Assembly (NCBI RefSeq): GCF_900302455.1
Contig: NZ_ONZG01000009.1
Coordinates: 124,001-188,000 of the forward strand
Direction of reading: 5' to 3'
DNA from: Falsiruegeria mediterranea M17
GTDB taxonomy: Bacteria > Pseudomonadota > Alphaproteobacteria > Rhodobacterales > Rhodobacteraceae
DNA: 64,000 bases
Positions 2,002-19,930 of the stretch are shown here, in pieces. Position 1 is the first letter of the stretch. Each line of letters starts with the position of its first letter. The notes beneath the pieces are model-generated. The model saw nothing but the letters and a program-made list of their open reading frames with translations, did no database searches and had not been told where the DNA came from. A program made the translations under genes and the position numbers.

Positions 2002-2107
2002 CTTGAAGCTCCTAAAGTTCAATCGAATTTCAGAGGATGTGACGCAAAACCGGAGGGTGAAGAAGTTCCAAAATCTGAAAAGATGAGCAGTCCAATTTGT
2101 GCGGGCA

Positions 2108-2141
2108 AGAAAAAAACCGGCGCGGAGGACGCGCCGGTTTT
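2108..2141 (-). terminator. Rho-independent terminator of tpa
   Basis: A 12-bp perfect stem (arms 2113-2124 and 2130-2141, loop of five bases) rich in CCGGCGCG is followed on the minus strand by a run of T. It lies 46 bases after the tpa stop. A second, weaker inverted repeat (TTTGCAC / GTGCAAA) sits between it and the stop at about 2145-2178. Confidence 0.9.
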
Positions 2142-2186
2142 AAGTTTGCACCCCCAAGCGGGGAGAGAGGGGTGTGCAAATATCAG

Positions 2187-4984: not shown

Positions 4985-5000
4985 GCGTTATTCGTGAAGT

Positions 5001-5036
5001 GGGGTGGGTGTTTGAAAAAACACCCACCCCTTTTTC
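5001..5036 (+). terminator. Intercistronic terminator between tauA and tauB
   Basis: GGGGTGGGTGTTT pairs with AACACCCACCCC (5019-5030) around a short A-rich loop and is followed directly by TTTTT. It looks like a full intrinsic terminator 16 bases after the tauA stop, although tauB and tauC follow in the same direction 46 bases later. Partial read-through or 3'-end stabilisation would set the TauA:TauBC ratio. Confidence 0.85.
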
Positions 5037-5081
5037 GCTTTACGTGTAAGGCGATCCCACCTTGGAAAGAAGGGGATCCAG

Positions 5082-5888
5082 GTGTCTGGACTTCTCATAA
5101 ATGATATCTCGATGCGCTTTGACCTGCCAAACGGTGGGCATGTCCAAGCGCTGAAGAACGTGTCGCTGGACATCAAGTCTGGTGAACTGATGAGTGTGTT
5201 GGGCCCGTCGGGCTGTGGCAAGACAACGCTTTTGAATATCGTCGCGGGCTTCTTGGCCCCGACCGAAGGGACAATTGAACTGAATGGGCAGGTCGAAACT
5301 GGCCCCAGCCCGGAACGTGGCATGGTGTTTCAGCAAGGCGCGCTGTTCGAATGGATGAACGTGCGCGACAACGTGAGCTTTGGTCCGGACATGAAAGGTG
5401 TCAGCCGGGCAGAAAGCAAAGAGAAGGTTGAACACCTTCTCGAAGTTGTTGGCCTGCAGGACTTCAAGGAAAAGGCCATCTATGAGCTGTCGGGCGGCAT
5501 GCAGCAGCGTGTTGCCTTGGCGCGTTGCCTGGCCAATGATCCGGACGTTATCCTGATGGACGAACCGCTCGGGGCCTTGGACGCTCTGACGCGTGAAAAG
5601 ATGCAGTCGCTGGTTCTGGACCTGTGGAAGGACACCGGCAAGACCATCATCCTGATCACCCACTCGGTCGAAGAGGCGTTGCTGCTTGGCGAACGCTTGT
5701 TGGTAATGGCGCCGCGTCCCGGTCGCGTGCACAAGGAATACCGCCTGCCGTTTGCGGACCTTGGCGTCGGCAACGACCTGCGGGAAGTGAAGAAACACAA
5801 GGACTACGCCGGGACGCGCGAAGAGATCCTTGAGATGATCTGGAACATGGAAGAAGAAATCATGGGCCGGACGGAGGAAAGCGCATGA
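5082..5888 (+). CDS. tauB: Taurine ABC transporter, ATP-binding subunit
   Basis: A 268-residue ABC ATPase with Walker A GPSGCGKTT (41-49), Q-loop FQQGALFEWMNV, signature LSGGMQQR (136-143), Walker B VILMDE (156-161), D-loop and switch His in ITHSVEEA. This NrtD/SsuB/TauB pattern drives uptake of sulfonates and related anions. The start is GTG at 5082, preceded by an AGAAGGGG site. The tail past the ABC core (about 230-268) is longer than in E. coli TauB. The stop overlaps the tauC start by four bases (ATGA), indicating translational coupling. Confidence 0.9.
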   Translation: MSGLLINDISMRFDLPNGGHVQALKNVSLDIKSGELMSVLGPSGCGKTTLLNIVAGFLAPTEGTIELNGQVETGPSPERGMVFQQGALFEWMNVRDNVSFGPDMKGVSRAESKEKVEHLLEVVGLQDFKEKAIYELSGGMQQRVALARCLANDPDVILMDEPLGALDALTREKMQSLVLDLWKDTGKTIILITHSVEEALLLGERLLVMAPRPGRVHKEYRLPFADLGVGNDLREVKKHKDYAGTREEILEMIWNMEEEIMGRTEESA

Positions 5889-7195
5889 CTGGTTTGCTCG
5901 TTCTCGTCCTCTACATAGGCGCGTTCTTTGGGTCGTTTTTCATCGCAAAGCGTGTTTTCAAAAGCGCGTTTGAGAAAAAAGGCTTCAACCGACTGAAAAC
6001 GGTGACCTTTGGCGATGAAAGCGCGATTACGGCCAACCGCGTCGCTTCGGTCGTTTCGGTCATCACCGTGTTTTGGCTCTGGGTGGCCTTCACCAACTCG
6101 ACGATTCCTCTCCCCAAGATGCCCGGCCCTTTCCTGGGTGACACGAGCTTTACCTACACGGTGCAGCTTGAAGACGGGACCACGGACGAAGCGGTCGTTT
6201 CGGTCCGGGTTTACCGCGAAGACATCCAGCAGACCGTCGATGAGAGCGGCGAGCCGGGCCGCGAGCCTGATCCGATCGAAGTCGAGCCCGGAGAGGGTTT
6301 TGCCAAGAACGATACGCTGACCGTGGCGCGCTATGCGTTCAAGGTTGTGAACGTCTGGAAAAACGATGAGGTCAGCAAGAAAGAAGGCTCCAAGATCATC
6401 ACGATCAATGGCCAACCCATCGAACCGGGTGGCGAGGTCAAGACCGATGACGGCACGATCCGTCTGACCGAAAAGGGCACGCCGACGTTTGAACCGGCCA
6501 AGGGCCTGCGCATGGCGCGGCTCTATCTGCCGGCACCCGAGGTTGTGTTGCAGCGCTTCTTCTGGCTGAACAAGGAAGGGTATCAGGGCTACACCCTGTT
6601 CGAGCACACACGCTTCTCGCTGCAGCGTGTTTTGCTGGGCTTCTTCTTTGGTGCTCTGATCGGCATCCCGATTGGCTATGCCATGGGGCTGACAGGCTGG
6701 GCCCGCGGTTGGTTTGACCCGATTGTCGAATTCATGCGTCCGATCCCACCCTTAGCCCTGATCCCGCTGGTGATCATCTGGTTCGGGATTGGTGAGCTTG
6801 GCAAGGTTGTCCTGCTGTTCCTGGCGGCGCTATGGATCATGATCATTGCGGCCCGATCAGGGGTCTCGGGGGTTGCGATTTCCAAGGTGCATGCGGCCTA
6901 TTCGCTGGGGGCGTCCAAGTGGCAGATCCTCAGCAAGGTCATCGTCCCGAACTCTTTGCCTGACATCTTCACTGGTGCCCGTGTCGCCATGGGAGTCTGT
7001 TGGGGTACAGTTGTTGCGGCTGAACTGGTTGCGGCAAACGTGGGTCTCGGCAAGATGATCGTGACCGCGTCCAAGTTCCAGCTGACCGACATCATCATCG
7101 TCGGCATCATCGTGATCGGTGTTATCGGCTTTGCCATCGAGGTCGGCATGCGGAAATTGGAAAGCTGGCTGATCCCGTGGAAAGGCAAAATCTGA
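5885..7195 (+). CDS. tauC: Taurine ABC transporter permease with large extra segment
   Basis: Residues 215-436 are a standard TauC/SsuC permease: LPAPEVVLQRF, five further membrane helices and the EAA loop (AAYSLGASKWQILSKVIVPNSLPDIF) that docks on TauB. At 436 residues it is far longer than the usual 250-280. The excess is an additional N-terminal helix (3-20) and a hydrophilic, acidic block from about 71 to 213 between the normal first helix (52-70) and the LPxPxxVL motif. The reading frame and codon use are continuous, so it is not an assembly fusion. The insert probably faces the periplasm and might contact TauA; this is inference. The gene closes the operon. Confidence 0.88.
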   Translation: MTGLLVLVLYIGAFFGSFFIAKRVFKSAFEKKGFNRLKTVTFGDESAITANRVASVVSVITVFWLWVAFTNSTIPLPKMPGPFLGDTSFTYTVQLEDGTTDEAVVSVRVYREDIQQTVDESGEPGREPDPIEVEPGEGFAKNDTLTVARYAFKVVNVWKNDEVSKKEGSKIITINGQPIEPGGEVKTDDGTIRLTEKGTPTFEPAKGLRMARLYLPAPEVVLQRFFWLNKEGYQGYTLFEHTRFSLQRVLLGFFFGALIGIPIGYAMGLTGWARGWFDPIVEFMRPIPPLALIPLVIIWFGIGELGKVVLLFLAALWIMIIAARSGVSGVAISKVHAAYSLGASKWQILSKVIVPNSLPDIFTGARVAMGVCWGTVVAAELVAANVGLGKMIVTASKFQLTDIIIVGIIVIGVIGFAIEVGMRKLESWLIPWKGKI

Positions 7196-7215
7196 TCCAG
7201 GCTTGATTTGAACAT

Positions 7216-7256
7216 GAACCGGGGCGCGCCTGATGGCGTGCCCCGGTTTCTTTTTG
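7216..7256 (+). terminator. Rho-independent terminator of tauABC
   Basis: Arms GAACCGGGGCGCGCC (7216-7230) and GGCGTGCCCCGGTTTC (7235-7250) with a four-base loop form a nearly perfect GC-rich stem, followed by TTTTT. It lies about 20 bases past the tauC stop. Confidence 0.88.
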
Positions 7257-7318
7257 GGTCCTCGTGATGAGACACTTTGCCGGTTGTGAGTGACCTGTAA
7301 TTGAACCAGCGTTCCCCT

Positions 7319-7771
7319 ATGGCCGATGAAACTCTCCTCTTGCCCCTCTCTGATCAGGTCGCCGATATCATGACGCGCCCAGCCGTGACGGTCATGGATG
7401 CCCATTGCGCGCTTTGTGCGCGTGGCGCGGCCTGGATTGCCCGCAATGATCACAGTCAAGAGTTCCTGATCGTACCGATGCAGACCGAGCTTGGTCGGAC
7501 CCTGTTGATGCAGCATGGGCTGGACCCAGATGATCCAACCTCTTGGCTGTATCTGGAACAGGGGCAAGCCTATACGTCGTCCGACGCCATCATTCATGCG
7601 GGACAAAAGCTGGGCGGCAAATGGCGGCTTCTGACTGGGATGCGGATCATACCAAGATCCGTTCGGGATGCGCTCTATCGAATGGTCGCGCGCAATCGGT
7701 ACCGCTGGTTCGGGCAGGGTGACATGTGCTCGATGCCCGACCCTGACGTGAAGCAACGTCTGTTCAAATGA
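7319..7771 (+). CDS. DCC-family (DUF393) thiol-disulfide oxidoreductase-like protein
   Basis: A 150-residue protein carrying the DAHCALCARGAAWIARND motif (the DxxCxxC signature of DUF393, normally DGxCxxC), the AIIHAGQKLGGKWRLL block and the C-terminal RDALYRMVARNRYRWFG. The two cysteines resemble a thioredoxin-like redox pair, but no substrate is established. ATG 7319 is chosen; an in-frame TTG at 7301 is possible, and neither has a clear ribosome site. It overlaps the next gene by ATGA, and DUF393 with DUF4166 is a sensible pair. Confidence 0.82.
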   Translation: MADETLLLPLSDQVADIMTRPAVTVMDAHCALCARGAAWIARNDHSQEFLIVPMQTELGRTLLMQHGLDPDDPTSWLYLEQGQAYTSSDAIIHAGQKLGGKWRLLTGMRIIPRSVRDALYRMVARNRYRWFGQGDMCSMPDPDVKQRLFK

Positions 7772-8307
7772 TCGTTCTTTACCGGCGGGTTCTGGGCGCA
7801 GCCCTTGATGATCTGCCGCCGCAATTGCTGGCTTTGCACGGCAGTGCCGATCCTCGAACCTGGTCAGGACAGGCTAGGATCTGGCGCGGTGCGGGCATTC
7901 TGTCTCGGCTGATCGGCTGGGTGATGCGTTTGCCGCCGGAGGGTGACGCGGTTCCGGTATCGGTCAGTTTCATTCCACAAGACTGAGGAGAAGTGTGGCA
8001 GCGCGATTTTGCCGGTCACACGTTTATGTCCTACCAGTACCAAGCACCAAATGCGCAGCCCGGCATTGTTAACGAGCGGTTTGGGATGATTGACGTGACC
8101 GTTGCTTTCCAGACCGATAGGGATCGTTTGGTTCTTGAGCCGATGGCATGGGCCTTTGGGCCTTTGCCTTTACCCAAAGCCCTTCTGCCCACAGGGCAAA
8201 GTTTCGAGACACAGATAGACGACCGCTTTGTGTTCGACGTCGAAATTGCGATGCCATGGGTGGGCCAGATTGCCACTTACCGCGGCTGGTTGTTGCCCAC
8301 CGAATGA
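7768..8307 (+). pseudogene. DUF4166 family protein interrupted by one in-frame TGA
   Basis: One frame runs from the ATG at 7768 (overlapping the previous stop) to 8307, broken only by TGA at 7984-7986. The part before it (MIVLYRRVLGAALDDLPPQLL to VSFIPQD) and the part after it (GEVWQRDFAGHTFMSY to GWLLPTE) join into one DUF4166-like protein of about 179 residues. A single G-to-T change (GGA to TGA, Gly to stop) would explain it. A GAGGAG next to the GTG at 7993 could allow restart, but only three bases separate them. Function of the family is unknown. Sequencing error or recent nonsense mutation are both possible. Confidence 0.75.
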
Positions 8308-8324
8308 GCTCGGACGGAAACAGG

Positions 8325-8361
8325 AAAACCGGGTCCGGTGAGCGCCGAACCCGGTCTTTCC
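8325..8361 (+). terminator. Hairpin after the DUF393-DUF4166 pair
   Basis: ACCGGGTCCGG (8328-8338) pairs with CCGAACCCGGT (8345-8355) with one mismatch, flanked by AAAA on the left and TCTTT on the right. It lies between convergent genes and could act in both directions; the T-run is short, so the call is tentative. The remaining bases up to 8547 show no gene. Confidence 0.5.
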
Positions 8362-8547
8362 GCCAAATCCCTCATGGCGGAGGTGTGATGCAAGCTTGAG
8401 AGGAGAGAAAAGCTCGCATCGGGTGGTTCTGGTGTCGAAACAGGCAGTTTTTTGCGGCGCGGGTATAGCATGTGGTGTGCAGCGGTCGTCCGGTAGTCGA
8501 AACCGCGATGCCATTCCCGCGCCTCAAGGCGCCTGCTCGGGGAGAGG

Positions 8548-10176
8548 TCAGGCCGCCTTTTGAGCCCCCGATCGTCGGTCCTGCAAGATCATGTCGCTGG
8601 CTTTTTCGCCGATCATGATAGCCGGTGCATTTGTGTTGCCGCTGACGATGGCAGGCATGATCGAGGCGTCCGCAATGCGAAGTCCGCCAATGCCATGTAC
8701 CCGCAATCTGTCATCGACGACGGCTTGGTCATCATGACCCATCCGGCAGGTCGAGGTCGGATGATAGATAGTTTGAGCGATGTTGCGCGCGGCCTCAAGG
8801 TGTTGTTCGTCTGTTTCAACCGGACCCACGGGAACGTGTTCGCGCACGATGAAGGGTGACAGGGCTTTGGTCTTGGTCATCGCGCGCGCAAACTTGACTG
8901 CGCGAATGGCACAAAGCTGGTCTGCGGTAGCCGAAAGATAATTCGGCACGATCAGGGGATGATCCTCGGATCGCGGACTGTTGATGTGGATGTGCCCGCG
9001 GCTTTCGGGGCGCAGCTGACAAACGGAAGAGGTAAAGCCCGAAAAGGGGTGCATCTCGATCCCCGGCTTGTCCGCTGACAGCGGCTGGAAGTGGAACTGG
9101 ATGTCAGGGGTTTCCAACCCTTCCATCGATTTGGCAAAAATGACCACCTGGCTTGCGCCAAGGCTCATCGGGCCGGTGCGTTTGAGCGCATATTCCAGGC
9201 CAATTCCCATGCGATGAACGAACGAATTGATAGCGTCATTCAAGGTTGCAACGTTCACTTCATAGACCAGACGTATCTGCAGGTGGTCCTGCAAACACTC
9301 GCCTACGCCTGGAAGTTCGTGCCTCACGCCGATCCCGGCATTTTGCAGAACTTGACCTTGGCCAATTCCCGACAGCTCCAGGATCTGCGGCGAACCAATT
9401 GCCCCTGCGGACAGAATGACTTCTCCACCCGGGCGCAGGCGCGCTGTCTTGGGGGCGTGCTGATGGATGAAGTTCACGCCAGTAACCTGCTTGGGCGCGT
9501 CACTGGCAAAGGCCAGACCGGTGGTGTGGGCATGCGTCAGAACGGTCAGGTTGTCTCGCTTGCCCTTGATCGGGGTCAGGAACGCCTTGGCCGAAGAGCA
9601 GCGAAAGCCTTTCTTGGCGGTTTGGTGAAAGTAGCCTGCACCTTCCTGATTCTCACCGTTGTAGTCATTGGTCCGGGGGACACCCATCTCGACAGCGGCT
9701 TCAATGAACGCCTCAGAGATCTCGGACTTGGCGCGGATCAGGGATACGGAAAGCTCTCCGTCCTGACCGTGCAGTTCGGCATCGCCACCTTCGTGGGTTT
9801 CCGATCGTTTGAACAAGGGGAGCACATCGTCATAAGACCAGCCCCGATTTCCCAACTGCGCCCAGTGGTCATAGTCTTCTTTCTGGCCACGCACGTAGAG
9901 CAAACCATTGATCGAGGACGACCCGCCAAGCGTCTTGCCGCGCGGCCAGTCCAGGCTGCGGCCATTCAGGCCCGGATCAGGCTCGGCCTTGTAGCACCAG
10001 TCGGTGTTTGGGTTGTGCAGCGTCTTGAAGTAGCCAACCGGGATGTGGATCCACGGGTTGTTGTCCTTGCCGCCCGCTTCGAGCAGCAGAACCTTGATCG
10101 ACGGGTCCTTGGACAGGCGGTTGGCCAGTACACAGCCGGCTGAACCGGCACCCACGATGATGTAGTCATAGTCCAT
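8548..10176 (-). CDS. GMC-family FAD-dependent oxidoreductase (choline dehydrogenase-like)
   Basis: A 542-residue GMC flavoenzyme: FAD-binding GAGSAG (8-13), GGSSSINGLLYVRG loop that holds FAD, the second signature GAIGSPQILELSGIG, and the C-terminal HPTSTCRMG plus SGNTNAPAIMIGEKASDMI with the catalytic His/Asn pair. Members oxidise primary alcohols such as choline or long-chain and polyethylene-glycol-type alcohols. It starts three bases after the sulfatase stop, so the two are co-translated. A link to choline is suggested only by that choline-sulfatase-like neighbour; the sequence reads more like the generic alcohol dehydrogenase branch than classical BetA. No signal peptide: cytoplasmic. 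Confidence 0.88.
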   Translation of the reverse strand: MDYDYIIVGAGSAGCVLANRLSKDPSIKVLLLEAGGKDNNPWIHIPVGYFKTLHNPNTDWCYKAEPDPGLNGRSLDWPRGKTLGGSSSINGLLYVRGQKEDYDHWAQLGNRGWSYDDVLPLFKRSETHEGGDAELHGQDGELSVSLIRAKSEISEAFIEAAVEMGVPRTNDYNGENQEGAGYFHQTAKKGFRCSSAKAFLTPIKGKRDNLTVLTHAHTTGLAFASDAPKQVTGVNFIHQHAPKTARLRPGGEVILSAGAIGSPQILELSGIGQGQVLQNAGIGVRHELPGVGECLQDHLQIRLVYEVNVATLNDAINSFVHRMGIGLEYALKRTGPMSLGASQVVIFAKSMEGLETPDIQFHFQPLSADKPGIEMHPFSGFTSSVCQLRPESRGHIHINSPRSEDHPLIVPNYLSATADQLCAIRAVKFARAMTKTKALSPFIVREHVPVGPVETDEQHLEAARNIAQTIYHPTSTCRMGHDDQAVVDDRLRVHGIGGLRIADASIMPAIVSGNTNAPAIMIGEKASDMILQDRRSGAQKAA

Positions 10177-10179
10177 TGT

Positions 10180-11718
10180 TCACACGACCTTGTCAGGTTT
10201 TGCCGGGGCCACATAGGGCAGTCGGGCTTTGGCCTTGGTGTCAGCCGCACCCGCGTTGCGGATGTAGCGGCGGTCGTCATCCTCGCGCACGAGATTGACG
10301 TATGAGGGTTCACCCCCCGTGATATTATGGATGGCCAAACGGCGTTGCTGGCTGGCGCGGATCTGCACCCGCAGCGCATCCGGGTCCCAGTCATCGAACA
10401 GAATCCCCTCCAGTTCGGCCCGCAGGTCGGCATGGGTCGGATCATCGGCCAGGTTGTTGACCTCGTTTGGGTCGTCGTCGGTGTTGTAGAGCAGGGTATC
10501 CACCCCCTCGAGCCACATCAGCTTCCATGGTCCACGCTTGACCATGCGGCTTGGCCCGGTGGAGCCGTCGGCGGCAAACTCGCCAATGCACAGATCGGTC
10601 ATGGCATCAGTGTTGCCGTTCAAGGCAGGCACCAAAGAATTCCCATCGATGGGTGACGCGTACCCGTTCCAGGCCTCACCCGCCGCCATGTCCATCAACG
10701 TCGGCATCAGGTCCACCAGCGAGCAGTTCTCTTTCACGCGGGCCGCGGAGTAACGGTTGGGTGCATGCACGATGAACGGGACTTTCGCTGCCCATTCAAA
10801 GAAATGCTGTTTGAACCACATTCCGCGTTCGCCCATCATTTCGCCATGGTCGGCGGTGACGATGACGATGGTGTTCTCGGCTAGGCCGGTTTTCTCCAGC
10901 ACGTCCATCATCTGACCGATTTTCTCGTCGATGTAGGAAATCATGCCGTAATACCCGTGCCGGGCCATGCGACGGTGCTCATCCGTGACGGTGAATTCGT
11001 GGCGCGACTGGCAATAGTGCAGATTGCGGCTCAGGTGATCCATCGCGTTTTCTTCGAGCGGCGGAACAGCGGGGCTCTCGATGTCGTCGTGATCATAGAG
11101 GTCCCAGTATTCCTGCCCGATCACAAACGGCGAGTGTGGCGATGTGAATGAGACCGTCAGCATGAAGGGGCGGCCATCGTCCTTGCGCGCCAGATCATAG
11201 AGCGCCTGAGTGCCGTGATAGGCGACCTCGTCATCGTAATCCATTTGCAGGGTGCGCACGGCAGGGCCGCTTTCGATGATCGGGGCCATGGTCAGGTTAG
11301 TGGGCTTGTATTCGCGCCCCTTCGACCAATCGACCGTCCAGGCAAAGTTCGCGGGATAGATCTCGGTCGTGTGGCGTTTTTCATAGCCGTGCATCTGGTC
11401 GGGGCCGACAAAGTGCATCTTGCCCGACATCTCGACGCGGTAATCCAACCCGCGCAAGTAATGGGCAAAGGTCGGGATGTCGGCGTGAAATTCATTGGCG
11501 TTGTCGTACATCTCGATGGCGAACGGCAGGCGTCCGGCATGCATCGAGGCGCGCGAGGGGCCGCACATGGGCAGATTGCAATAGCAGTTCTCAAAAACGA
11601 CCCCTTCGTCCGCCAGACGGTCGATGTTCGGCGCCTTGACGGTCTTGTTGCCATAGGGCGCAAGGGCGTTGGCAGCGAGTTGGTCGGCCTGAATGAATAG
11701 AATGTTGGGACGGGTCAT
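10180..11718 (-). CDS. Choline-sulfatase-like sulfatase (BetC family)
   Basis: A type I sulfatase of 512 residues, the same length as rhizobial choline sulfatase. Cys52 in MCGPSRASMHAGRLP is the residue converted to formylglycine. Metal-site residues are visible at D12 and in VTADHGEMMGERGMW. Phrases such as SGKMHFVGPDQMHGYEKRHTTEIYPANFAWT and MDYDDEVAYHG closely follow BetC as I remember it. It would release sulfate from choline-O-sulfate or a similar sulfate ester. With no signal peptide it must act on imported substrate, which fits the adjacent TTT transporter. The exact substrate is inference. Confidence 0.85.
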   Translation of the reverse strand: MTRPNILFIQADQLAANALAPYGNKTVKAPNIDRLADEGVVFENCYCNLPMCGPSRASMHAGRLPFAIEMYDNANEFHADIPTFAHYLRGLDYRVEMSGKMHFVGPDQMHGYEKRHTTEIYPANFAWTVDWSKGREYKPTNLTMAPIIESGPAVRTLQMDYDDEVAYHGTQALYDLARKDDGRPFMLTVSFTSPHSPFVIGQEYWDLYDHDDIESPAVPPLEENAMDHLSRNLHYCQSRHEFTVTDEHRRMARHGYYGMISYIDEKIGQMMDVLEKTGLAENTIVIVTADHGEMMGERGMWFKQHFFEWAAKVPFIVHAPNRYSAARVKENCSLVDLMPTLMDMAAGEAWNGYASPIDGNSLVPALNGNTDAMTDLCIGEFAADGSTGPSRMVKRGPWKLMWLEGVDTLLYNTDDDPNEVNNLADDPTHADLRAELEGILFDDWDPDALRVQIRASQQRRLAIHNITGGEPSYVNLVREDDDRRYIRNAGAADTKAKARLPYVAPAKPDKVV

Positions 11719-11748
11719 CGTGTTAAATCCGATTGAGTGGTTTCAAGT

Positions 11749-11773
11749 GGGCGGCACGGTGGGCGCGCCGCCC
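11749..11773 (-). other. Intercistronic stem-loop between tctC and the sulfatase gene
   Basis: GGGCGGC and GCCGCCC form a 7-bp perfect stem in the 78-base gap downstream of tctC and upstream of the sulfatase. There is no T-run, so transcript stabilisation or mild attenuation is more likely than full termination. Confidence 0.45.
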
Positions 11774-11796
11774 AAAGGTCTCTCGTGAGTGGTGGT

Positions 11797-12777
11797 TCAG
11801 CGAATGGTGAGACCCAGTTTGTCCAGAGCAGTGTTGAAGATGTTGTATTGCGCTTCGACGAAGGCCTTGGTTTCTTCGGGGCTGCGAATGTCGACGACGT
11901 TGCCCAGCTGGGTGGTCATGCGGTTCCAGGCCTTGTCGTCCTTCAGCTTTTGCAGCGTGTCGGTCCAGGCGGCGACGACATCTTCGGGCAGATCGGGCGG
12001 GCCGTAGATGGCGCTCCAACCGATGATCTGTTCCATGTCCGGGTATCCCAGTTCGCCAACAGTCGGGATGTCACCCACGGCTTCGAACCGCTCGGGCGTG
12101 GTGATGGCCAGCGCCTTGAGTTGACCGCCCTCGATGGCGTTGATCACACCCGACAGGTTCTGCCACATGAAATCCACCTGACCGCCGATGATCGCGGCGC
12201 GCGCCTTTCCGCCACCTTTGTAAGGGACGTGGATCAGGTTGTCTGCGTTGGCCCCCATGGTGTCGGCCATAACAGCAGTTGCGATGTGCAGCAGCGTGCC
12301 GACCCCGGCCGAGCCGTAAGTCATTTCGGTGCCGTCTTTGATGGCGGCTTCGAACTCGGCAAAGCTGTTGATCGGGCTGTCGCCGGCCACCACCAGGACA
12401 AAGGGGTTGGTTTCGATCAGACCCAGCATGGTGAAGTCGTCCCACTCATACGGGATGGTCTTGTTCATCGCCGGCACGCCCATTTGCGAGCCTACGCGAG
12501 CGGAGAGCAGGGTGTAGCCGTCTGCCTTGGAGTTGATGACGAAGTTCGAGCCTACAACGCCGGCCGCGCCAGTGCGGTTCACGGCCAGGATCGGCTGACC
12601 CAGATAGCTGGGCGCGGTGCCCGAAATCAGACGCGCGGACAGGTCCGCGGCACCGCCGGGTCCGTATGGAATGACCATGGTGATGGGGCGATCGGGATAG
12701 CCTTCGGCCTGGGCCGAGGTCAGCGATGCAACCGCGATCGCGGCGCCCGCTGCCAATGATTTGATGAGTGTTTTCAT
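11797..12777 (-). CDS. tctC: TTT transporter substrate-binding protein (TctC/Bug family)
   Basis: A 326-residue periplasmic protein with a signal peptide (about 1-24, ending SAQA), followed by GYPDRPITMVIPYGPGGAADLSAR, the canonical start of Bug/TctC proteins, and later GSAGVGTLLHIATAVMADTMGA and VPYKGGGKARAAIIGGQVDF. It delivers a small, usually carboxylated, ligand to TctAB. GGGAGGA precedes the ATG at 12777. It is divergent from the ROK-tctB-tctA-phosphoesterase genes, so the three transporter subunits are split over two transcripts around the regulator promoter. The ligand is not predictable from sequence. Confidence 0.9.
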   Translation of the reverse strand: MKTLIKSLAAGAAIAVASLTSAQAEGYPDRPITMVIPYGPGGAADLSARLISGTAPSYLGQPILAVNRTGAAGVVGSNFVINSKADGYTLLSARVGSQMGVPAMNKTIPYEWDDFTMLGLIETNPFVLVVAGDSPINSFAEFEAAIKDGTEMTYGSAGVGTLLHIATAVMADTMGANADNLIHVPYKGGGKARAAIIGGQVDFMWQNLSGVINAIEGGQLKALAITTPERFEAVGDIPTVGELGYPDMEQIIGWSAIYGPPDLPEDVVAAWTDTLQKLKDDKAWNRMTTQLGNVVDIRSPEETKAFVEAQYNIFNTALDKLGLTIR

Positions 12778-12895
12778 GTGTTCCTCCCAGAGAGATTCGG
12801 CCTGTTTTTCCTTGGCCGTGTAAGGTTTTGGTTGACTTCGGCCCTTTCTCAGGAAAGTTTGTTACTGTCTGTAATTAACTCGGAACCGAAAACAA
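12778..12895. promoter_or_regulatory. Divergent promoter region of the TTT locus
   Basis: Between tctC and the ROK gene, 118 bases. A loose inverted repeat GTTA-N11-TAAC (12861-12879) lies about 15 bases before the ROK start and is a candidate operator; the match is short and I give it little weight. Confidence 0.4.
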
Positions 12896-14101
12896 ATGCA
12901 AGACACTTTGCCAAACACACTTTCCACGGCGGGCATTCGGCGCGCCAATCGAGAGGAGATTTTGCGCACGGTTTTCTCGCAAGGCGGGACAACCCGTTTG
13001 CAGTTGGTCAAGCACACCGGGCTGACCGGGGCGGCGGTCTCGCGGATCACCCGCGAGCTGATTGAGGCCGGGCTGCTGGTCGAAGGCGAGCGTGTTCAAT
13101 CCAAAGGGAAAACTGGTCGCAAAGAGGTCACGCTGAGCATGGCCCAGAACACGGCATTTGTTCTTGGGTTCACGGTCACGGCCAACCGCCTTTCGGTGGG
13201 TGTTTCGGATGTTTCAGGCACCGAGATCGAGACGCGCCAATTGCACATCAGTCGGACCCGCGCCGAAGAGGTTTTGCGCGCTTTGTGCGAGACGGCGCAC
13301 GCCATGATCGCCGAGCTAGGGCTTGAGTCGAATCGTATCATTGGCGTCGGCGTCATGGTCGCGGCGGCCAGCCGAAACTGCGTCGACGGGGTTGTGACGT
13401 CCGCGCCCTTGGGTTGGACCAGCGTGCCTGTGGGTCAGCTGATCGAAGAGAACATGTGCCTGCCCGTCAGCGTCGAGGTGCGCGCCGTATCGCTGCTGCA
13501 GGTCGAAATGACACGCGGGCAAGGGGCCGGGCAGGGCGATCTGGTTCTGGTCAACAACAGCCTTGGTATCGGGGCCGCGGCGGTGCTGGGGGGGCATCAA
13601 CTGGCAGGCGCATCCTGTGACATCGCGCATCTGGCCTTTGCAGGGGACAGCCGCTCCTGTTCGTGCGGGCGCAAAGGGTGCCTGGAGGCCACAGCATCTG
13701 GATTTGCGGTCGTGGACCAGCTGATTGCGGCCGGAAAATTGGAATCCGCACGCGACAGCAGCCGCAAGGCGGCAGCTTTAGCCCGCGCATTGCAAATGGC
13801 CGAAGATGGGGATGGAGAGGTCAAGCGCGCGTTTTTTGAGGCAGGTCAACGCATGGCGCTTGGATTGGATGCCGTAGCTGCGCTTTTGGGCCCTTCGAGC
13901 ATCATCCTTGCTGGGGAAACCGGTCGACAGCCGGATTTCGTCGAAGGCGCCCGCAATCACCTCAAGTCGCTGCGGGTCACGGACCCCGGCTTTGAGCTGT
14001 TGGTCAGCCAGGTCACGTCGAACACCGCTGTCATCAACTACGCGCTGGAGCGGTTCTTGTTCTCCAGCGAACTGGATCTGGATCGCCTGCAGGCGGACTA
14101 A
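12896..14101 (+). CDS. ROK-family transcriptional regulator
   Basis: A 401-residue NagC/XylR-type repressor. A MarR-like winged helix occupies about 14-75 (RREEILRTVFSQGGTTRLQLVKHTGLTGAAVSRITRELIEAGL) and the ROK sugar-kinase fold follows. The zinc motif CSCGRKGCLE is intact. The ATP-binding DxGGT motif is absent (GFTVTANRLSVGV instead), so it is a regulator, not a kinase. ROK regulators usually respond to sugars or their derivatives. It heads the tctBA operon and faces tctC, and so probably controls both sides. Confidence 0.9.
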   Translation: MQDTLPNTLSTAGIRRANREEILRTVFSQGGTTRLQLVKHTGLTGAAVSRITRELIEAGLLVEGERVQSKGKTGRKEVTLSMAQNTAFVLGFTVTANRLSVGVSDVSGTEIETRQLHISRTRAEEVLRALCETAHAMIAELGLESNRIIGVGVMVAAASRNCVDGVVTSAPLGWTSVPVGQLIEENMCLPVSVEVRAVSLLQVEMTRGQGAGQGDLVLVNNSLGIGAAAVLGGHQLAGASCDIAHLAFAGDSRSCSCGRKGCLEATASGFAVVDQLIAAGKLESARDSSRKAAALARALQMAEDGDGEVKRAFFEAGQRMALGLDAVAALLGPSSIILAGETGRQPDFVEGARNHLKSLRVTDPGFELLVSQVTSNTAVINYALERFLFSSELDLDRLQAD

Positions 14102-14122
14102 AAGAAACCGAAGGGAGGAAAC

Positions 14123-14605
14123 ATGTCAAAATCTTCTGACATCATAGCAGGGGCGGTCTTTCTGACGCTCGGGGTGCTGCTGATCTTTGTTTTGATACCT
14201 GTGGGTGTCGATGAGCCCCGCAAAGTGCCGTTTGCTGCGGCGTCGCCGTCGTATTACCCCAAGCTGATTGGCTATGTGATCGGCCTTTTGGGAGCGGGTA
14301 TTCTGGTTCAGGGGCTACGGCGTGCACCGGACGATACCCCGTCCGTAGGCTTCGCGCCCTATGCCAAGGTGCCGGTGGCGATGGGGATCATGGCTGTCTT
14401 CTATCTCTTGCTGCCGTTTCTGGGTTTCATCTTGGGCGCGATGCTGGCTCTTTGTGCCTTGATGCTGCTGGCGGGAGAGCGCTCTCCGAAGGTTCTGGGG
14501 TTGGTTTCGGTCCTGTTGCCGATTGGCCTCTACCTCTTTTTTGCCAAGGTCGCGGGGATTCCGATCCCGTCCGGTCCCTTGGAACCCTACCTGATAAGGA
14601 TCTGA
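14123..14605 (+). CDS. tctB: TTT transporter small membrane subunit
   Basis: A 160-residue protein with four predicted membrane helices (about 9-30, 48-68, 84-115, 125-145), the size and pattern of TctB. The tail PSGPLEPYLIRI is typical. GGGAGGA precedes the ATG, 21 bases after the ROK stop, and tctA starts five bases after its stop. It is the poorly conserved small partner of TctA in a secondary, ion-driven uptake system. Confidence 0.88.
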   Translation: MSKSSDIIAGAVFLTLGVLLIFVLIPVGVDEPRKVPFAAASPSYYPKLIGYVIGLLGAGILVQGLRRAPDDTPSVGFAPYAKVPVAMGIMAVFYLLLPFLGFILGAMLALCALMLLAGERSPKVLGLVSVLLPIGLYLFFAKVAGIPIPSGPLEPYLIRI

Positions 14606-14609
14606 ACCG

Positions 14610-16100
14610 ATGCTGGATACACTGGCCAATGCCTTTGCCCTGTTTGCGTCGATCGACAACGTCATCGTACTGTTCATCGGCGTGGTCGTCGGAACGGTCG
14701 TGGGCGCGATCCCTGGCATGACAACCCCGATGGCGGTGGCGTTGACGCTGCCGTTTACCTTTTCCATGCCACCTGTCACCGGCATCCTGCTGCTTTTGGG
14801 AGTTTACAAGGGCGGGATCTATGGCGGGTCGATCACTGCGATCCTGATCAACGCACCGGGGACGCCCGCCGCGTCGTGCACCGTTCTCGATGGCTATCCG
14901 CTGGCACGCAAGGGGCAGGCGCGACGCGCGCTCGACATCGCGCTCTATGCGTCATGCGTGGCAGATTTCATTTCGAACATCTCTCTGATCCTGTTTGCGG
15001 GCATTCTGGCGAGCTTTGCGCTTAAATTCCAATCGCCCGAGGTTTTCACTCTGGTCGTGTTCTCGCTGACCATCATCGCGGGTGTGTCAGGGGATCAGTT
15101 GCTCAAGGGTCTGGGATCTGCCGGTCTTGGTCTGCTGTTGGCAACCGTGGGTCTCGATCTGCTCTATGGCACCAATCGCTTTGTCTTTGGCGACGTGAAC
15201 TTGATGAGCGGCCTGAACTTCATCCCGGTCCTGATCGGTTTGTTCGCGGTGCCCGAGATCATCAACTATTTCGTCAAGAATGACGTCGAACTGGAGCAAT
15301 CCAAACTTGCGGGCATAGGTGCCACCTGGAATGACTTCAAAAGCTGCCTTAAGTCGATCATTCGCGGATCGTTCATCGGGGTGATCCTGGGGGCTGTTCC
15401 TGGCATCGGCGGGGCACCGTCGGCGTTCCTGTCGTATTCCGAGGCGCGTCGGACCTCAAAGAACAAGGCCAACTTTGGCAAGGGCGAGATCGAAGGCGTC
15501 GCAGCGGCTGAGGCCGGCAACAACGGCGTGGCCGGTGCCACGATGATCCCGTTGCTGGCGCTTGGCATTCCGGGTGACATCATCACGGCAATCATCCTGG
15601 GGGCGTTCATGATCCACGGGCTGCGTCCCGGGCCGCTGATGTTCCAGCAGAACATCGACCTGATCTATGCCATCTTCATCGGCATCATGCTCAGCTCGTT
15701 CTACCTGCTGATCGTGGGCAAGGCGTCGATCCGGATCATTTCCAAGATTGCGGACATCCCGCAGCGGGTGCTGTTCCCGATCGTGCTGATCCTTTGCGTT
15801 TTTGGTGCGTATGCGGTCAACAACTCAACCTACGATGTCGGCGTGATGCTGGTGATGGGTCTGGTGGGCTATGCGATGCTCAAACTGGCCATACCTGCGG
15901 CACCGTTCCTAATTGCCTTTATCCTTGGCCCACTGCTAGAGGACAACTTCCGCCAGTCTCTGACGATCTCGAGAGGGGATTACAGCATCTTCTTTAGCTC
16001 GACGATCTGTTGGGTATTCTGGGGGCTGACCGCGCTGACCGTTGGGCTGCTGATCTGGCAGCGCGTGGGGAGCGTAAAAACCGAGGTGCCACTGTCGTGA
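14610..16100 (+). CDS. tctA: TTT transporter large membrane subunit
   Basis: A 496-residue, about 12-helix membrane protein. The paired TctA signatures are present: VGTVVGAIPGMTTPMAVALTLP near the N-terminus, GGIYGGSITAILINAPGTPAA, and in the second half GVILGAVPGIGGAPSAFLSYSEARR and GNNGVAGATMIPLLALGIPGD. It forms the translocation path for the ligand captured by TctC. AAGGA lies before the ATG. Its TGA overlaps the GTG start of the following phosphoesterase, so the two are translationally coupled. Confidence 0.93.
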   Translation: MLDTLANAFALFASIDNVIVLFIGVVVGTVVGAIPGMTTPMAVALTLPFTFSMPPVTGILLLLGVYKGGIYGGSITAILINAPGTPAASCTVLDGYPLARKGQARRALDIALYASCVADFISNISLILFAGILASFALKFQSPEVFTLVVFSLTIIAGVSGDQLLKGLGSAGLGLLLATVGLDLLYGTNRFVFGDVNLMSGLNFIPVLIGLFAVPEIINYFVKNDVELEQSKLAGIGATWNDFKSCLKSIIRGSFIGVILGAVPGIGGAPSAFLSYSEARRTSKNKANFGKGEIEGVAAAEAGNNGVAGATMIPLLALGIPGDIITAIILGAFMIHGLRPGPLMFQQNIDLIYAIFIGIMLSSFYLLIVGKASIRIISKIADIPQRVLFPIVLILCVFGAYAVNNSTYDVGVMLVMGLVGYAMLKLAIPAAPFLIAFILGPLLEDNFRQSLTISRGDYSIFFSSTICWVFWGLTALTVGLLIWQRVGSVKTEVPLS

Positions 16101-17827
16101 CCGAACCATTGTTCACATTCGCCGTCTTCACCGACACTCATATCCGCGCGCCCGAGGGGGACTTGTCATCGCCCTATGCGGTGAACACCAAGGCCAACGC
16201 GCGGGCCGAGGTGGCGGCGGCGCTTGTGGCAGCGCAGAACCCTGCGCTGACGATCCACCTTGGTGATATGGTTCATCCCCTGCCGCATATGGCGGCCTAC
16301 GAACCGGCGTGTCAGGAGGCGCGCCGGGTCTTTGCCTGCCTGGAGCCCAACCTGCATTTTGTGCCGGGGAACCACGACATTGGCGACAAACCGCATGACG
16401 CCTCACCAGCGGGGGCGGTGACGCCCGATGCGGTTGCGGCCTATTCGGGTCAATTCGGTGATCAGTGGTCCCATGTAGATCATGGGGACTGCCGGTTCGT
16501 CCTGATCAATTCCTCCATTGTCGGCAGTGGTTTGGATGTGGAACAGGAGCAATTCGACTGGCTCGAACAGGTGCTGGCCACCGACAAACGCACTTTTCTG
16601 TTCTCGCACTATCCGCTCTTCATCGACTCGGTGGATGAGGATGAACACTATGACAACTACGGGCTTCAGGGACGCACGCGGCTGCTCGAGGTGATTGAAC
16701 GACACGGCGTAGAGGCGGTGCTGTCCGGCCATGTGCATCAGTTCTTTTACAACCGTGCAGGCGAGACGAAGTTCTATTGCCTGCCTGCCACCAGTTTTAC
16801 CCGTCAGGACTTTGCCGAGCTCTACAATGCAGGCCCCGAAGCCGAATTTGGCCGCAACGATCGTGGCAAGTTCGGGATCATGTTGGTCGATGTCTTTACA
16901 GACGGGCATCGGTTGCGGTTTGTTCCCACGGGCGGCGCGGAATCGGATGCCGTTGTGGATATGAGCCAACGCAAGCCGCCCGCAAACTCAGGGCTTGTCC
17001 CCTTCATGCGACACGCCTGGTATCAGAGCCGCGATCTGCCCTACACCGGCGCAATGGAAGAGTTCTCACGCAAGCGGGCACGCAATGACTATCCGCTTTT
17101 GCGTTTGTGGCAGATGGGGATCGAAACAGTCCGCACGCCGCTGGCCGATCTGGCCCGACCCGAAAGCCTGCGCCGGGTGCAGGACTTTGCGGCGACCGGC
17201 ATTCGGTTCCATATGTTTACCACGTCGATGCCGGATGAAAGGATGCTGGAGCTGATCGCGGCCAATCGCGATGCCCTGGCCGGACTTGAGATCGTGCAGG
17301 TCGAACCGGATCTGGCCCGCGTCAAGGAAATCGCCAAAGCGCTGATGAAAACCGTGGATGTGCCCCTTTACGTCAGTCGTGCGGCTACTTCGGCTGATAA
17401 CGCGGTCGAGGGGCAGATCTATGCCCACAACGTCTGGACCGGCTACCGCTATGCGCGCCGGGCCGAGATCCTGGATGGTCTGGCCGACACTGGCCTGCCA
17501 CTGCGGCCGATCTTTGCTGTTGGTTGGCGTGCGGACTGGTTGGGCAAGATCGGCGGATTGCAGGATGCGTTTGAGCATCGCGGGATCGAGGGCGCAGTGG
17601 CGGTCCAACTGATGACAGGCAGCCCTGCGACTGCGAACTTTGACGATGACTATATCGTGGAAAGCGTGGCCGAATTGGTGCGTGGCCGGGCGCGGCATCC
17701 CCGTGTCACGGTCATGCTGGATACGTTCGAGACCATCGATCGCGGCTACAACCCGCGCCACGGGTTGATTGACCGGCTGGGCAATTTGACCCCGGCGGGG
17801 CGGTCTTTGACCCTATCGCGTGACTAA
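16097..17827 (+). CDS. Metallophosphoesterase with uncharacterised C-terminal domain
   Basis: A 576-residue two-part protein. Residues 1 to about 270 are a calcineurin-like phosphoesterase: FAVFTDTHIR, GDMVHP, VPGNHD, SHYP and SGHVHQF supply the dimetal ligands, as in CpdA and GpdQ-type enzymes. The remaining 280 or so residues (from HAWYQSRDLPY to the end) look like an alternating beta/alpha fold, possibly a TIM barrel; I do not recognise a family. The GTG at 16097 is chosen because it overlaps the tctA stop (GTGA). No signal peptide: it would act on imported material. Hydrolysis of a phosphodiester or phosphomonoester is likely; substrate unknown. Confidence 0.83.
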   Translation: MTEPLFTFAVFTDTHIRAPEGDLSSPYAVNTKANARAEVAAALVAAQNPALTIHLGDMVHPLPHMAAYEPACQEARRVFACLEPNLHFVPGNHDIGDKPHDASPAGAVTPDAVAAYSGQFGDQWSHVDHGDCRFVLINSSIVGSGLDVEQEQFDWLEQVLATDKRTFLFSHYPLFIDSVDEDEHYDNYGLQGRTRLLEVIERHGVEAVLSGHVHQFFYNRAGETKFYCLPATSFTRQDFAELYNAGPEAEFGRNDRGKFGIMLVDVFTDGHRLRFVPTGGAESDAVVDMSQRKPPANSGLVPFMRHAWYQSRDLPYTGAMEEFSRKRARNDYPLLRLWQMGIETVRTPLADLARPESLRRVQDFAATGIRFHMFTTSMPDERMLELIAANRDALAGLEIVQVEPDLARVKEIAKALMKTVDVPLYVSRAATSADNAVEGQIYAHNVWTGYRYARRAEILDGLADTGLPLRPIFAVGWRADWLGKIGGLQDAFEHRGIEGAVAVQLMTGSPATANFDDDYIVESVAELVRGRARHPRVTVMLDTFETIDRGYNPRHGLIDRLGNLTPAGRSLTLSRD

Positions 17828-17862
17828 GCCCGTGTAACGCCCGCGTCGCAAACAACCTGCGC

Positions 17863-17896
17863 CCCGACGTCAACTTGATATTGGCGTCGGGCGTTT
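17863..17896 (+). terminator. Terminator of the ROK-tctBA-phosphoesterase operon
   Basis: CCCGACGTCAA (17863-17873) pairs with TTGGCGTCGGG (17881-17891), with one G-U pair and a seven-base loop, followed by CGTTT. It lies 36 bases after the phosphoesterase stop. The weak T-run lowers confidence. Confidence 0.6.
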
Positions 17897-17951
17897 CCTG
17901 TGATCATTATCCCTGCACCTGCTAACTGCACGGCACTGAAGGGAAGAGGTC

Positions 17952-19583
17952 ATGGCGCAACCGAACATTTACGAACAGCATCTGGATCAGAACCGGGCCA
18001 ACCACGCCGCGCTGTCCCCGCTCAGCTATCTTGAACGCACGGCGCTGATTTATCCCGACTATCCGGCCCTCGTTTATGGAGACCGCCGCCAGAGCTGGTC
18101 TGAGACCTATGACCGCTGCCGCAGGCTGGCCAGTGCGTTGCACCAGCGGGGTATCGGCAAGGGTGACACCGTATCGATCATCGCCGCCAACATCCCCGAG
18201 ATGTATGAAGCGCATTTTGGCATTCCTATGACTGGCGCTGCGCTGAACGCCATCAACACCCGCCTGGATGCTCCCATCGTGGCCTTCATCTTGCAGCACG
18301 CCGAGGCCAAGGTGCTCCTGGTTGATCCTGAATTCTCAGCCGTTGTGAAAGAGGCGCTGACGCAGTTTGACAGCGCGGACTTGTTGGTGATCGACATCGA
18401 AGACGACAGTTTCGATGGGGGCGAGAAGCTGGGGGCGCTGACCTATGACGCTTTGCTGGCCGAGGGCGATGCGTCGTTTGACTGGTCCCTGCCAGCCGAT
18501 GAATGGGACGCGATCACCTTGAACTATACCTCGGGTACGACCGGCAATCCCAAGGGCGTTGTCTATCATCACCGGGGGGCAGCGCTGAACGCGACCTCGA
18601 ACATTCTGACTTGGGGCATGCCGCAGCATTCCGTGTATTTGTGGACGCTGCCGATGTTCCACTGCAACGGTTGGTGTTTCCCCTGGACCATGGCGGCCAA
18701 TGCCGGTGTATCCGTCTGTCTGCGCGCCGTGCGGGACGAGCCAATTTATCGTGCGTTCCGCGAAGAGAAGGTCACCCATTTCTGCGGTGCGCCCATCGTG
18801 CTGAACATGCTGGCCAACGCGCCGGATGAAATGAAGGACTTTGACCACCAGATCAAAGTCATGACGGCCGGTGCCCCGCCACCAGCTGCCGTGATCGCGA
18901 ATATGGAGGGGATGGGGATCGAGGTGACCCACGTCTACGGTCTGACCGAAACCTATGGCCCGTCGGTTGTGTGCGCATGGAAGGACGAATGGAATGAGCG
19001 CCCTGCTGAGGATCGCGCCGCTCTCAAGGTGCGGCAAGGGGTCAAATATCTCGCGCTTTCGGGCCTGATGGTGGCTGACCCCGAAACGCTGGAGCCGGTG
19101 CCTGCTGATGGCGAAACGATGGGCGAGATCTTCATGCAGGGCAACATCGTGATGAAGGGTTACCTCAAGAACGCCGAGGCGACCGACAAGGCGTTTAACG
19201 GTGGTTGGTTCGCAAGTGGCGATTTGGGAGTGATGCATCCCGATGGTTATGTGGCTCTGAAAGACCGCTCCAAGGACATCATCATCTCAGGAGGTGAAAA
19301 CATCTCATCCGTCGAAGTTGAGGATATCCTGTACAAACACCCTGCGGTGATGGAGGCCGCCGTGGTCGCCCGCCCGGACGAGAAATGGGGCGAGACTCCC
19401 TGCGCCTTTGTCGAACTGAAACCGGGGCAAGATGCGACCGAGGCCGAGATTATCGCCTTTTGTCGCGATTACATGGCCCGTTTCAAAGCGCCCAAGACGG
19501 TGGTGTTCGGCAGCCTGCCCAAAACCTCGACCGGCAAGATCCAGAAATTCGTGCTGCGTGACCAGGCGCGGGCCTTGGGCTGA
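17952..19583 (+). CDS. Acyl-CoA synthetase, candidate methylmercaptopropionate-CoA ligase (DmdB-like)
   Basis: A 543-residue adenylate-forming ligase: P-loop YTSGTTGNPKG (192-202), GLTETYGP, the SGDLGVMHPDGYVALKDR hinge and the C-terminal catalytic Lys in TSTGKIQKF. It activates a carboxylic acid to its CoA ester via an acyl-AMP. Length and sequence resemble roseobacter ligases shown to act as DmdB on 3-methylmercaptopropionate; from memory, Ruegeria pomeroyi has such a gene next to tauABC. Medium- or short-chain fatty acids are alternative substrates. GGGAAGAGG precedes the ATG. Its stop is two bases from the convergent next gene. Confidence 0.85.
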   Translation: MAQPNIYEQHLDQNRANHAALSPLSYLERTALIYPDYPALVYGDRRQSWSETYDRCRRLASALHQRGIGKGDTVSIIAANIPEMYEAHFGIPMTGAALNAINTRLDAPIVAFILQHAEAKVLLVDPEFSAVVKEALTQFDSADLLVIDIEDDSFDGGEKLGALTYDALLAEGDASFDWSLPADEWDAITLNYTSGTTGNPKGVVYHHRGAALNATSNILTWGMPQHSVYLWTLPMFHCNGWCFPWTMAANAGVSVCLRAVRDEPIYRAFREEKVTHFCGAPIVLNMLANAPDEMKDFDHQIKVMTAGAPPPAAVIANMEGMGIEVTHVYGLTETYGPSVVCAWKDEWNERPAEDRAALKVRQGVKYLALSGLMVADPETLEPVPADGETMGEIFMQGNIVMKGYLKNAEATDKAFNGGWFASGDLGVMHPDGYVALKDRSKDIIISGGENISSVEVEDILYKHPAVMEAAVVARPDEKWGETPCAFVELKPGQDATEAEIIAFCRDYMARFKAPKTVVFGSLPKTSTGKIQKFVLRDQARALG

Positions 19584-19585
19584 CA

Positions 19586-19930
19586 TCAGTCAAAGATCGA
19601 TAGATCAAGCTCAAGCAGTTCGCCCATCCAGACCGCCCGATCCCGGTGATCCTCAAGATGCTCACCGGTGTCGGGGTGGGTGAAGATTGTCAGCCCTTGC
19701 CGGTTCAACATCAGCCAGGGCAACACCTGATCCAGCACCTCGGGACCAAACCCCAACTGGCAGCTCCAGCGCGGGTGGGGGCCCACGTTGCGCTCGTGCA
19801 TCCGCCCCATCTTGACGTCGAACAGCCGGGCCGCTTCTTCGCAAACGGCACGCGCGGTTTCGACGGTGTCTGCGCCAAAGTAGACGTGTGCGTGATAACC
19901 TTTGATCTCGGGCATGTCAGCTCCTGTCAT
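19586..19930 (-). CDS. DOPA 4,5-dioxygenase family protein
   Basis: A 114-residue protein with the family features IKGYHAHVYFG near the N-terminus, the GPHPRWSCQLGF block and LTIFTHPDTGEHLEDH, which together supply conserved histidines for a single-metal dioxygenase-like site. Plant and fungal relatives cleave DOPA extradiolically; bacterial members have no established role. The ATG at 19930 or the one at 19915 (MPEIKGYH) could be used. It is convergent with the acyl-CoA synthetase, only two bases apart. Confidence 0.83.
   Translation of the reverse strand: MTGADMPEIKGYHAHVYFGADTVETARAVCEEAARLFDVKMGRMHERNVGPHPRWSCQLGFGPEVLDQVLPWLMLNRQGLTIFTHPDTGEHLEDHRDRAVWMGELLELDLSIFD

Follow-up and report, generated by a model that had tools for sequence, protein, structure and literature searches.

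A locus of Falsiruegeria mediterranea M17, lying in a 64,000-nucleotide stretch of contig NZ_ONZG01000009.1 (positions 124,001 to 188,000; hereafter the window), encodes a BetC-like sulfatase and a GMC flavoprotein together with a complete tripartite tricarboxylate transporter (TTT; TctA, TctB and TctC are all recognised by Pfam), a ROK-family regulator and a phosphoesterase. TctC, the sulfatase, TctB, TctA and the phosphoesterase form a real, conserved module. The best explanation that we can offer for it, put forward tentatively on the basis of sequence comparisons, is that the transporter would import an ester of isethionate, from which the sulfatase would free isethionate for oxidation by the GMC enzyme and further use by Xsc.

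A conserved module

The original prediction, made from the letters of the window alone, placed a sulfatase, a GMC enzyme and TctC on one strand and ROK, TctB, TctA and a phosphoesterase on the other. Positions and Pfam matches bear this out for all seven genes (Table 1), which are tightly arranged: TctC, sulfatase and GMC follow one another on the minus strand with gaps of 78 and 3 bases, respectively, and ROK, TctB, TctA and phosphoesterase run the opposite way from the divergent region. The prediction gave a signal peptide to TctC and none to the three enzymes, and by eye an evident one is seen only in TctC among the locus proteins.

A scan of named genomes with the window sulfatase gave 37 loci. 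Thirty-three of them (L042-L073 and the fragment L078), whose sulfatases are 64-98% identical to that of the window over the best segment, make up the orthologue set; L074-L077 (36-40% identical) were not counted as orthologues. TctC is found in 31 of the 33, and the two loci without it (L067 and L078) start inside the sulfatase gene. Among the 24 orthologous loci with more than 5 kb of upstream sequence, TctC, TctB, TctA and the phosphoesterase are each present in 24 (E<=1e-10; minimum identities 45, 28, 60 and 31%, respectively), ROK in 21 (it is missing from L055, L062 and L065) and a GMC of at least 60% identity in eight, so that the GMC is optional and stands outside the invariant core. 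Conservation of the gene set in other genomes, which the original prediction proposed to check, is thus complete for the core; a separation of sulfatase and TctA in most relatives, which it named as the contrary result, was looked for, and the two genes are linked in 24/24.

Three gene orders occur among the orthologous loci, the phosphoesterase coming after the sulfatase in L054, L056, L059, L064, L072 and L073, and phosphoesterase, TctA and TctB all lying downstream in L055 and L065. Some of these loci are close kin, hence not independent, but the maintenance of linkage through such rearrangements argues for a common function. TctA, TctB, TctC and the phosphoesterase were found at E<=1e-6 in none of 24 control loci with distant, non-orthologous BetC-family sulfatases (L009, L010, L074-L077 and L081-L098; some of these stretches are short). 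In a class sample of 385 genomes, the sulfatase (E<=1e-180) is present in five and the phosphoesterase (E<=1e-40) in eight that include all five, i.e. 5/5 sulfatase genomes versus 3/380 others (Fisher p 8e-10; 4e-8 if the own genome is left out; not corrected for kinship).

Some carriers among L042-L073 are host-associated by record title (Bugula neritina, Spongia), and others, such as coral Ruegeria and sponge bins, we take to be so. The sulfatases of L072 and L115 are identical, one record being titled Gemmatimonadota and the other genome (G338) belonging to the class of the window, which suggests that the bin may be misassigned.

A sulfatase with an altered pocket

The sulfatase is BetC-like, as originally predicted. 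It scores 568.6 on the NCBIfam choline-sulfatase model TIGR03417 (cut-off 433.45) and keeps in alignment the catalytic set of formylglycine (FGly) sulfatases, namely D14, C54, N75, K102, H201, D296, H297 and K309 in the numbering of Sinorhizobium meliloti BetC (SmCS), which is used throughout; the roles of these residues are those given in PMC5870055 and PMC9063841. FGE-type genes are present in the own genome. The window sulfatase belongs to a separate clade of 34 rows (support 100/99), apart from S. meliloti BetC, in a tree that omits the fragments L067, L069 and L078 and the near-identical L079 and L080.

In the S. meliloti structures, Trp129 and His145 clamp choline, with a conserved GW-X13-WYHN motif (PMC9063841), and the choline tunnel is lined by the tail of the neighbouring subunit (PMC5870055, PMC9063841). 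Residue 386 has an assigned role in ammonium recognition (PMC5870055); it is named Glu386 in one of these two papers and Asp386 in the other, and our reference row has Glu. The window sulfatase does not have this hairpin: WWYHN (142-146) has become PTNLT in 34/34 clade rows, Trp143, Tyr144, His145 and Asn146 all being replaced, and of the clamp Trp129 alone is kept, together with Tyr123. Residue 386 is Asp in all clade rows with a letter there.

The charge of the pocket has changed as well. We compared the clade with 20 BetC-like rows picked for keeping W143, H145 and E386, in difference-filtered columns only. Position 141 is Lys/Arg in 34/34 clade rows versus Asp/Glu in 17/20 BetC-like rows; positions 137 and 158 are Arg in 34/34 (158 is Arg in 3/20 BetC-like rows), 393 is Arg and 503 Lys in the 33/33 clade rows with letters, and Asp126 and Asp202 are lost. 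The median net charge, clade versus BetC-like rows, is 0 versus -4 in the hairpin segment and +2 versus -1 in the C-terminal tail, whereas that of the remaining sulfatase is -26 versus -20. The six largest positive shifts among 107 overlapping alignment windows start at SmCS 93-123 (the region of the choline hairpin) and 469 (the C-terminal tail). We read this basic gain in the hairpin and the tail facing it as a sign that the head group has probably changed from a cation to an anion.

Two other sulfatases of the own genome, C48 (892.5 on the choline model) and C14 (697 bits), keep the choline hairpin (WWYHN and KWYHN, respectively) and Glu at 386. C14 has a Rieske-type oxygenase and, also close by, a DAO/GCV_T flavoprotein; C48 lies beside a GMC that passes the betA model (837.9, cut-off 732.1), and this betC-betA pair in the same genome indicates that the sulfatase-GMC pair of the window is a distinct one. 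In the window locus, no gene except the sulfatase passes a bet model. Choline-O-sulfate, the substrate named first by the original prediction, was rejected on the pocket, on the type of GMC (see below), on the better betC-betA pair of the own genome and on the ROK regulator, and is unlikely to be the substrate of the window sulfatase. The wider wording of that prediction, another ester not yet assigned to TTT carriers, fits our results, and the evidence favours an ester of isethionate.

The sister sulfatase of the clade, 48% identical (support 99/96), is encoded in L081 (G058, 6844-17333), where two BetC-like sulfatases, a ROK protein and a GMC are accompanied by a DctM/TRAP-type permease and an NMT1_3 binding protein replacing the TTT. 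In L131 (G017, 13393-17503), TctC, a distant sulfatase (28-39% identical in pieces) and TctA stand side by side. Together these two loci suggest that sulfatase and tripartite carrier came together more than once.

A GMC flavoprotein of the isethionate type

The window GMC fails the betA model TIGR01810 (493 versus a cut-off of 732.1). In a tree of 52 rows (43 of them different), it is placed outside the BetA branch, in a clade of 25 rows (support 100/99) that does not contain the BetA of the own genome and includes the GMCs of the window, of Ruegeria, of a second cluster of the own genome (C22), of Filomicrobium L053 and of the L056/L072 group. An IseK-like TRAP gene flanks every GMC of the clade that does not adjoin the sulfatase, that of L159 excepted. 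The C22 GMC, 81% identical to that of the window and similar to it in score on the choline dehydrogenase models (518.3 for betA, cut-off 732.1), is divergent to DctP-DctQ-DctM-IclR, iseR being, we presume, of the IclR type. This gene order matches the iseJ-K-L-M-R order of Ruegeria pomeroyi (SPO2359 to SPO2355; PMC4334477); IseJ is described as a membrane-bound, flavin-dependent enzyme working with Xsc (PMC6453916).

A cluster of the iseR-M-L-K-J type adjoins the TTT-sulfatase locus itself in L053, L056 and L072. In L053, the genes after TctC-sulfatase are IclR, DctM, DctQ, DctP, GMC, a CBS gene, Xsc and Pta; in L056, L072 and L115, the cluster (IclR-DctM-DctQ-DctP-GMC) lies directly past tctA. 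L046 has the order sulfatase-GMC-Xsc (Xsc 897, cut-off 676.4), with a GMC orthologous to that of the window, and in G1042, the genome of L070, a GMC of 57% identity lies elsewhere in the genome with Xsc directly after it. More generally, a GMC at E<=1e-150 is present in 22 of 23 sulfatase genomes; in 14 of these 23, the loci returned include an IseK-like gene within 1.5 kb of such a GMC. Xsc is present in 4/5 sulfatase genomes of the class sample versus 42/380 genomes without the sulfatase (Fisher p 8e-4) and in 17 of 19 further sulfatase genomes, those of L044 and L058 being without it. By gene order and tree position, the window GMC is of the isethionate (IseJ) type, a predicted dehydrogenase. 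The presence of isethionate-type genes beside the locus in several genomes suggests that these bacteria may use an undescribed sulfate ester of isethionate.

Transporter, regulator and phosphoesterase

The nearest solved structures to TctC are Bug/TctC proteins, from which we draw no ligand specificity. TTT carriers have been proposed for sulfolactate (SlcGFH; PMC10507020) and for sulfoacetate, sponge symbionts included (SauXYZ; PMC12625764), so that a small sulfonate as cargo of a TTT has precedent; no sulfatase is named for these two carriers in the available parts of the two papers.

The regulator combines the ROK domain PF00480 with an N-terminal winged helix (PF13412). The sugar-binding motifs of ROK proteins, which we take to be ND and ExGH, are intact in 0/22 aligned rows (the alignment being unsure for the most divergent ones), and the Cys-rich site is missing in several of the 22. 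A sugar sulfate, hinted at by the ROK family, was considered as substrate and is weakened by the lack of these motifs. AT-rich imperfect palindromes in the divergent region recur in relatives (by eye) and are a possible ROK operator. In L070 (3041-3796), a gene of the TauE/SafE-type sulfite exporter family adjoins the phosphoesterase.

The predicted structure of the phosphoesterase, a good model (predicted local distance difference test, pLDDT, 86), has two domains. The N-terminal one (about residues 1-285) matches Rv0805, GpdQ and purple acid phosphatases in Foldseek. In 22 rows, D13, H15, D57, N92, H93, H171, H212 and H214 are invariant, in agreement with the GpdQ-like metal-ligand pattern that we assume to be DxH, D, GNHD, H, GHxH, and a GpdQ-like phosphodiesterase fold is predicted. 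Unlike GpdQ and Rv0805, with which it has this fold in common, the window protein has an extra C-terminal domain (about 290-576; pLDDT 83) that resembles a triosephosphate isomerase (TIM) barrel, has invariant residues of its own in the 22 rows and no Pfam match at E<=1. Its Foldseek matches are weak and mixed TIM barrels (the best is a GH10 xylanase, E 1.2e-6, template modelling score 0.54/0.41), and for this reason we draw no function from it.

The proposed pathway and the arguments against it

The cargo of TctABC would be a small ester of isethionate (2-hydroxyethanesulfonate) with two negative charges. The likeliest candidate is isethionate-O-sulfate (2-(sulfooxy)ethanesulfonate, or ethionate), the sulfonate analogue of choline-O-sulfate and a dianion similar in size to the dicarboxylates bound by TTT carriers. 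The cytoplasmic BetC-like sulfatase, of the formylglycine type, would cleave the sulfate ester to give isethionate; the IseJ-type GMC, encoded beside the sulfatase or elsewhere in the genome, would convert isethionate to sulfoacetaldehyde, and Xsc would turn the latter into acetyl phosphate and sulfite. ROK would control the divergon through a non-sugar effector, and the substrate of the metallophosphoesterase may be another, related ester of isethionate or a conjugate. We infer the substrate, the flux through these steps, the effector and the phosphoesterase step from the genes described above. The import, desulfation and oxidation of the original prediction are recovered in this scheme, which fits the conserved link between TTT and sulfatase.

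Several observations weigh against this pathway. Isethionate-O-sulfate is not known to us as a natural product, and it was not found as such in the literature searched on isethionate and sulfatase or related terms. An IseJ-type GMC is present in 8/24 core loci, IseK/IseM in 2/24 and Xsc in 1/24 within the fetched stretch (9, 3 and 2, respectively, in all 33 loci); the GMC of L047 is broken in pieces, and L056 and L072 are close kin. G408, which has the sulfatase, the TTT and the phosphoesterase, yielded neither a GMC (E<=1e-150) nor Xsc (E<=1e-200). The enrichment in Xsc is a weak argument, being confounded by kinship: Xsc is also present in all four same-family genomes of the class sample that lack the sulfatase. 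The name IseJ comes from gene order and type, not from the protein sequence of R. pomeroyi. In the sulfatase, the acid retained at 386 is odd for a sulfonate head group, Arg238 (20/20 BetC-like rows) has become Asn, and positions 409 and 488 have turned acidic. The main gap of the explanation is the phosphoesterase, which has no firm place in the scheme. In three overlapping samples (385 genomes of the class, 398 of the phylum and 295 of the family) it is found in 17 genomes, eight with the sulfatase beside it and nine without this sulfatase in what was searched: G067, G320 and G437 have no match at E<=1e-180, G017, G041 and G043 none at orthologue level, and G921, G1021 and G739 no orthologue within the fetched stretch.

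Alternative hypotheses

The charge changes of the pocket would suit any anionic head group. The sulfatase could act on the sulfate of another anionic alcohol (a C3 dihydroxypropanesulfonate or a hydroxy-acid, for instance), with the GMC as an add-on by which certain lineages alone make use of the product, and both the optional GMC and the lack of isethionate-type genes in G408 at the thresholds used would then be accounted for; we regard this as rather unlikely, given that isethionate-type genes adjoin the locus in Roseobacters, in Filomicrobium L053 and in the L056/L072 group. Alternatively, TTT and phosphoesterase might be the real unit, serving another C2 sulfonate or phosphonate (sulfoacetate or an isethionate phosphodiester), with a sulfatase-fold enzyme that cleaves a phosphodiester, a phosphonate or a sulfonate ester. 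The retention of the FGly-sulfatase catalytic set and the score on the choline-sulfatase model make this improbable, despite the TTT carriers proposed for C2/C3 sulfonates in the papers cited above and the neighbours of sulfatase-less phosphoesterases: TTT genes in L111, L130 and L132, a TRAP carrier in L128, and aminotransferase and ABC genes in L125. In L111 (G437, 3-19866), the phosphoesterase relative clusters with a phosphonate-binding protein and two aminotransferases, TctB-TctA being nearby.

A route in which the TTT takes up choline-O-sulfate, the sulfatase cleaves it and a choline dehydrogenase carries out the oxidation seems to us very improbable. The passing TIGR03417 score speaks for it, as do the retained Tyr123 and Trp129 and the acid at 386; they are set against four choline-motif residues replaced in every clade row, a GMC that fails the betA cut-off and is placed off the BetA branch, and two other sulfatases of the own genome with an intact motif, one of them beside betA. 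We find it hardly credible that the genes form a loose neighbourhood without a common pathway, as might be argued from the core loci lacking ROK (3/24) or GMC (16/24) and from G041, in which the phosphoesterase stands without other genes of the locus; TctC, TctB, TctA and phosphoesterase remain linked to the sulfatase in all 24 loci despite altered order, and the phosphoesterase is present in every sulfatase genome of the class sample (5/5, versus 3/380 others; kinship uncorrected).

Features of the locus and neighbouring genes

Table 1. Features of the divergent locus (positions in the window)
Feature	Position	Strand	Basis
GMC flavoprotein, predicted IseJ (isethionate dehydrogenase) type	8548..10176	-	Pfam GMC_oxred_N/C
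FGly-type sulfatase, BetC paralogue, altered head-group pocket	10180..11718	-	Pfam Sulfatase; TIGR03417
TctC solute-binding protein of TTT transporter	11797..12777	-	PF03401 9.4e-45; signal peptide by eye
Divergent promoter region, 118 bases	12778..12895		sequence
ROK-family regulator	12896..14101	+	PF00480 + HTH_24
TctB small membrane subunit	14123..14605	+	PF07331 4.5e-15
TctA large membrane subunit	14610..16100	+	PF01970 1.1e-147
Phosphoesterase, two domains	16097..17827	+	PF00149 (Metallophos)

The phosphoesterase is given the start of its homologues, a GTG at 16097; the open reading frame list has a TTG at 16010. The acyl-CoA synthetase gene that follows (17952-19583) was considered as a member of the module and excluded, a homologue of at least 87% identity adjoining the locus only in the near kin of the window (L050, L079 and L080). 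Such a homologue also adjoins the phosphoesterase in G041 (L125, 4279-13022), where aminotransferase and ABC genes are directly succeeded by a phosphoesterase of 70% identity and the acyl-CoA synthetase, and where sulfatase, TTT, ROK and GMC were not found within the stretch. Just outside the locus, at 2187-7195 of the window, are genes for a class III aminotransferase, an NMT1-type binding protein, an ABC ATPase and a permease; the best NCBIfam match of the binding protein and the ATPase is taurine, both below cut-off, and the group resembles a cluster for the uptake and transamination of taurine.

Conclusion

The locus is a new combination of known parts. It resembles betICBA (S. meliloti BetC and the bet genes of R. 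pomeroyi) in joining a sulfatase of the same family, with the same catalytic residues, to a GMC enzyme, the two acting (in the case of the window, as we propose) in sequence on a 2-substituted ethanol; it differs in pocket motif and charge, in clade, in GMC type, in regulator (ROK versus BetI) and in transporter (TTT versus BetT or ChoXWV). With iseR-M-L-K-J of R. pomeroyi (which works with Xsc), it has in common a GMC of the same clade as those encoded in clusters arranged in this order; the carrier of the known cluster is of the TRAP type, and sulfatase, TTT, ROK and phosphoesterase are not named for it in the available part of its description. With SlcGFH and SauXYZ, the likeness is a TTT for small organosulfonates. 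The gene set is undescribed in the literature searched, which combined TTT and sulfatase, TTT/TctC and sulfonate, TTT and phosphonate, and isethionate and sulfatase (titles and starts of abstracts; a paper naming ethionic acid alone would escape).

If our explanation is correct, the association of a BetC paralogue with a GMC related to BetA would parallel the choline-sulfate pathway, with a head group of opposite charge. We would even suggest, as a possibility that we consider somewhat doubtful, that isethionate-O-sulfate is an unrecognised marine metabolite, catabolised by marine and partly host-associated bacteria through a dedicated pathway of TTT, BetC paralogue and IseJ-type GMC. Proteins that pass the choline-sulfatase model would in such cases be misnamed, and gene-based estimates of marine choline-O-sulfate use skewed accordingly. 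The locus opens a way, amenable to testing, to a class of substrates that TTT carriers have not been assigned and, if the proposal is true, predicts a specific molecule that could be sought by metabolomics of sponges, corals and algae.

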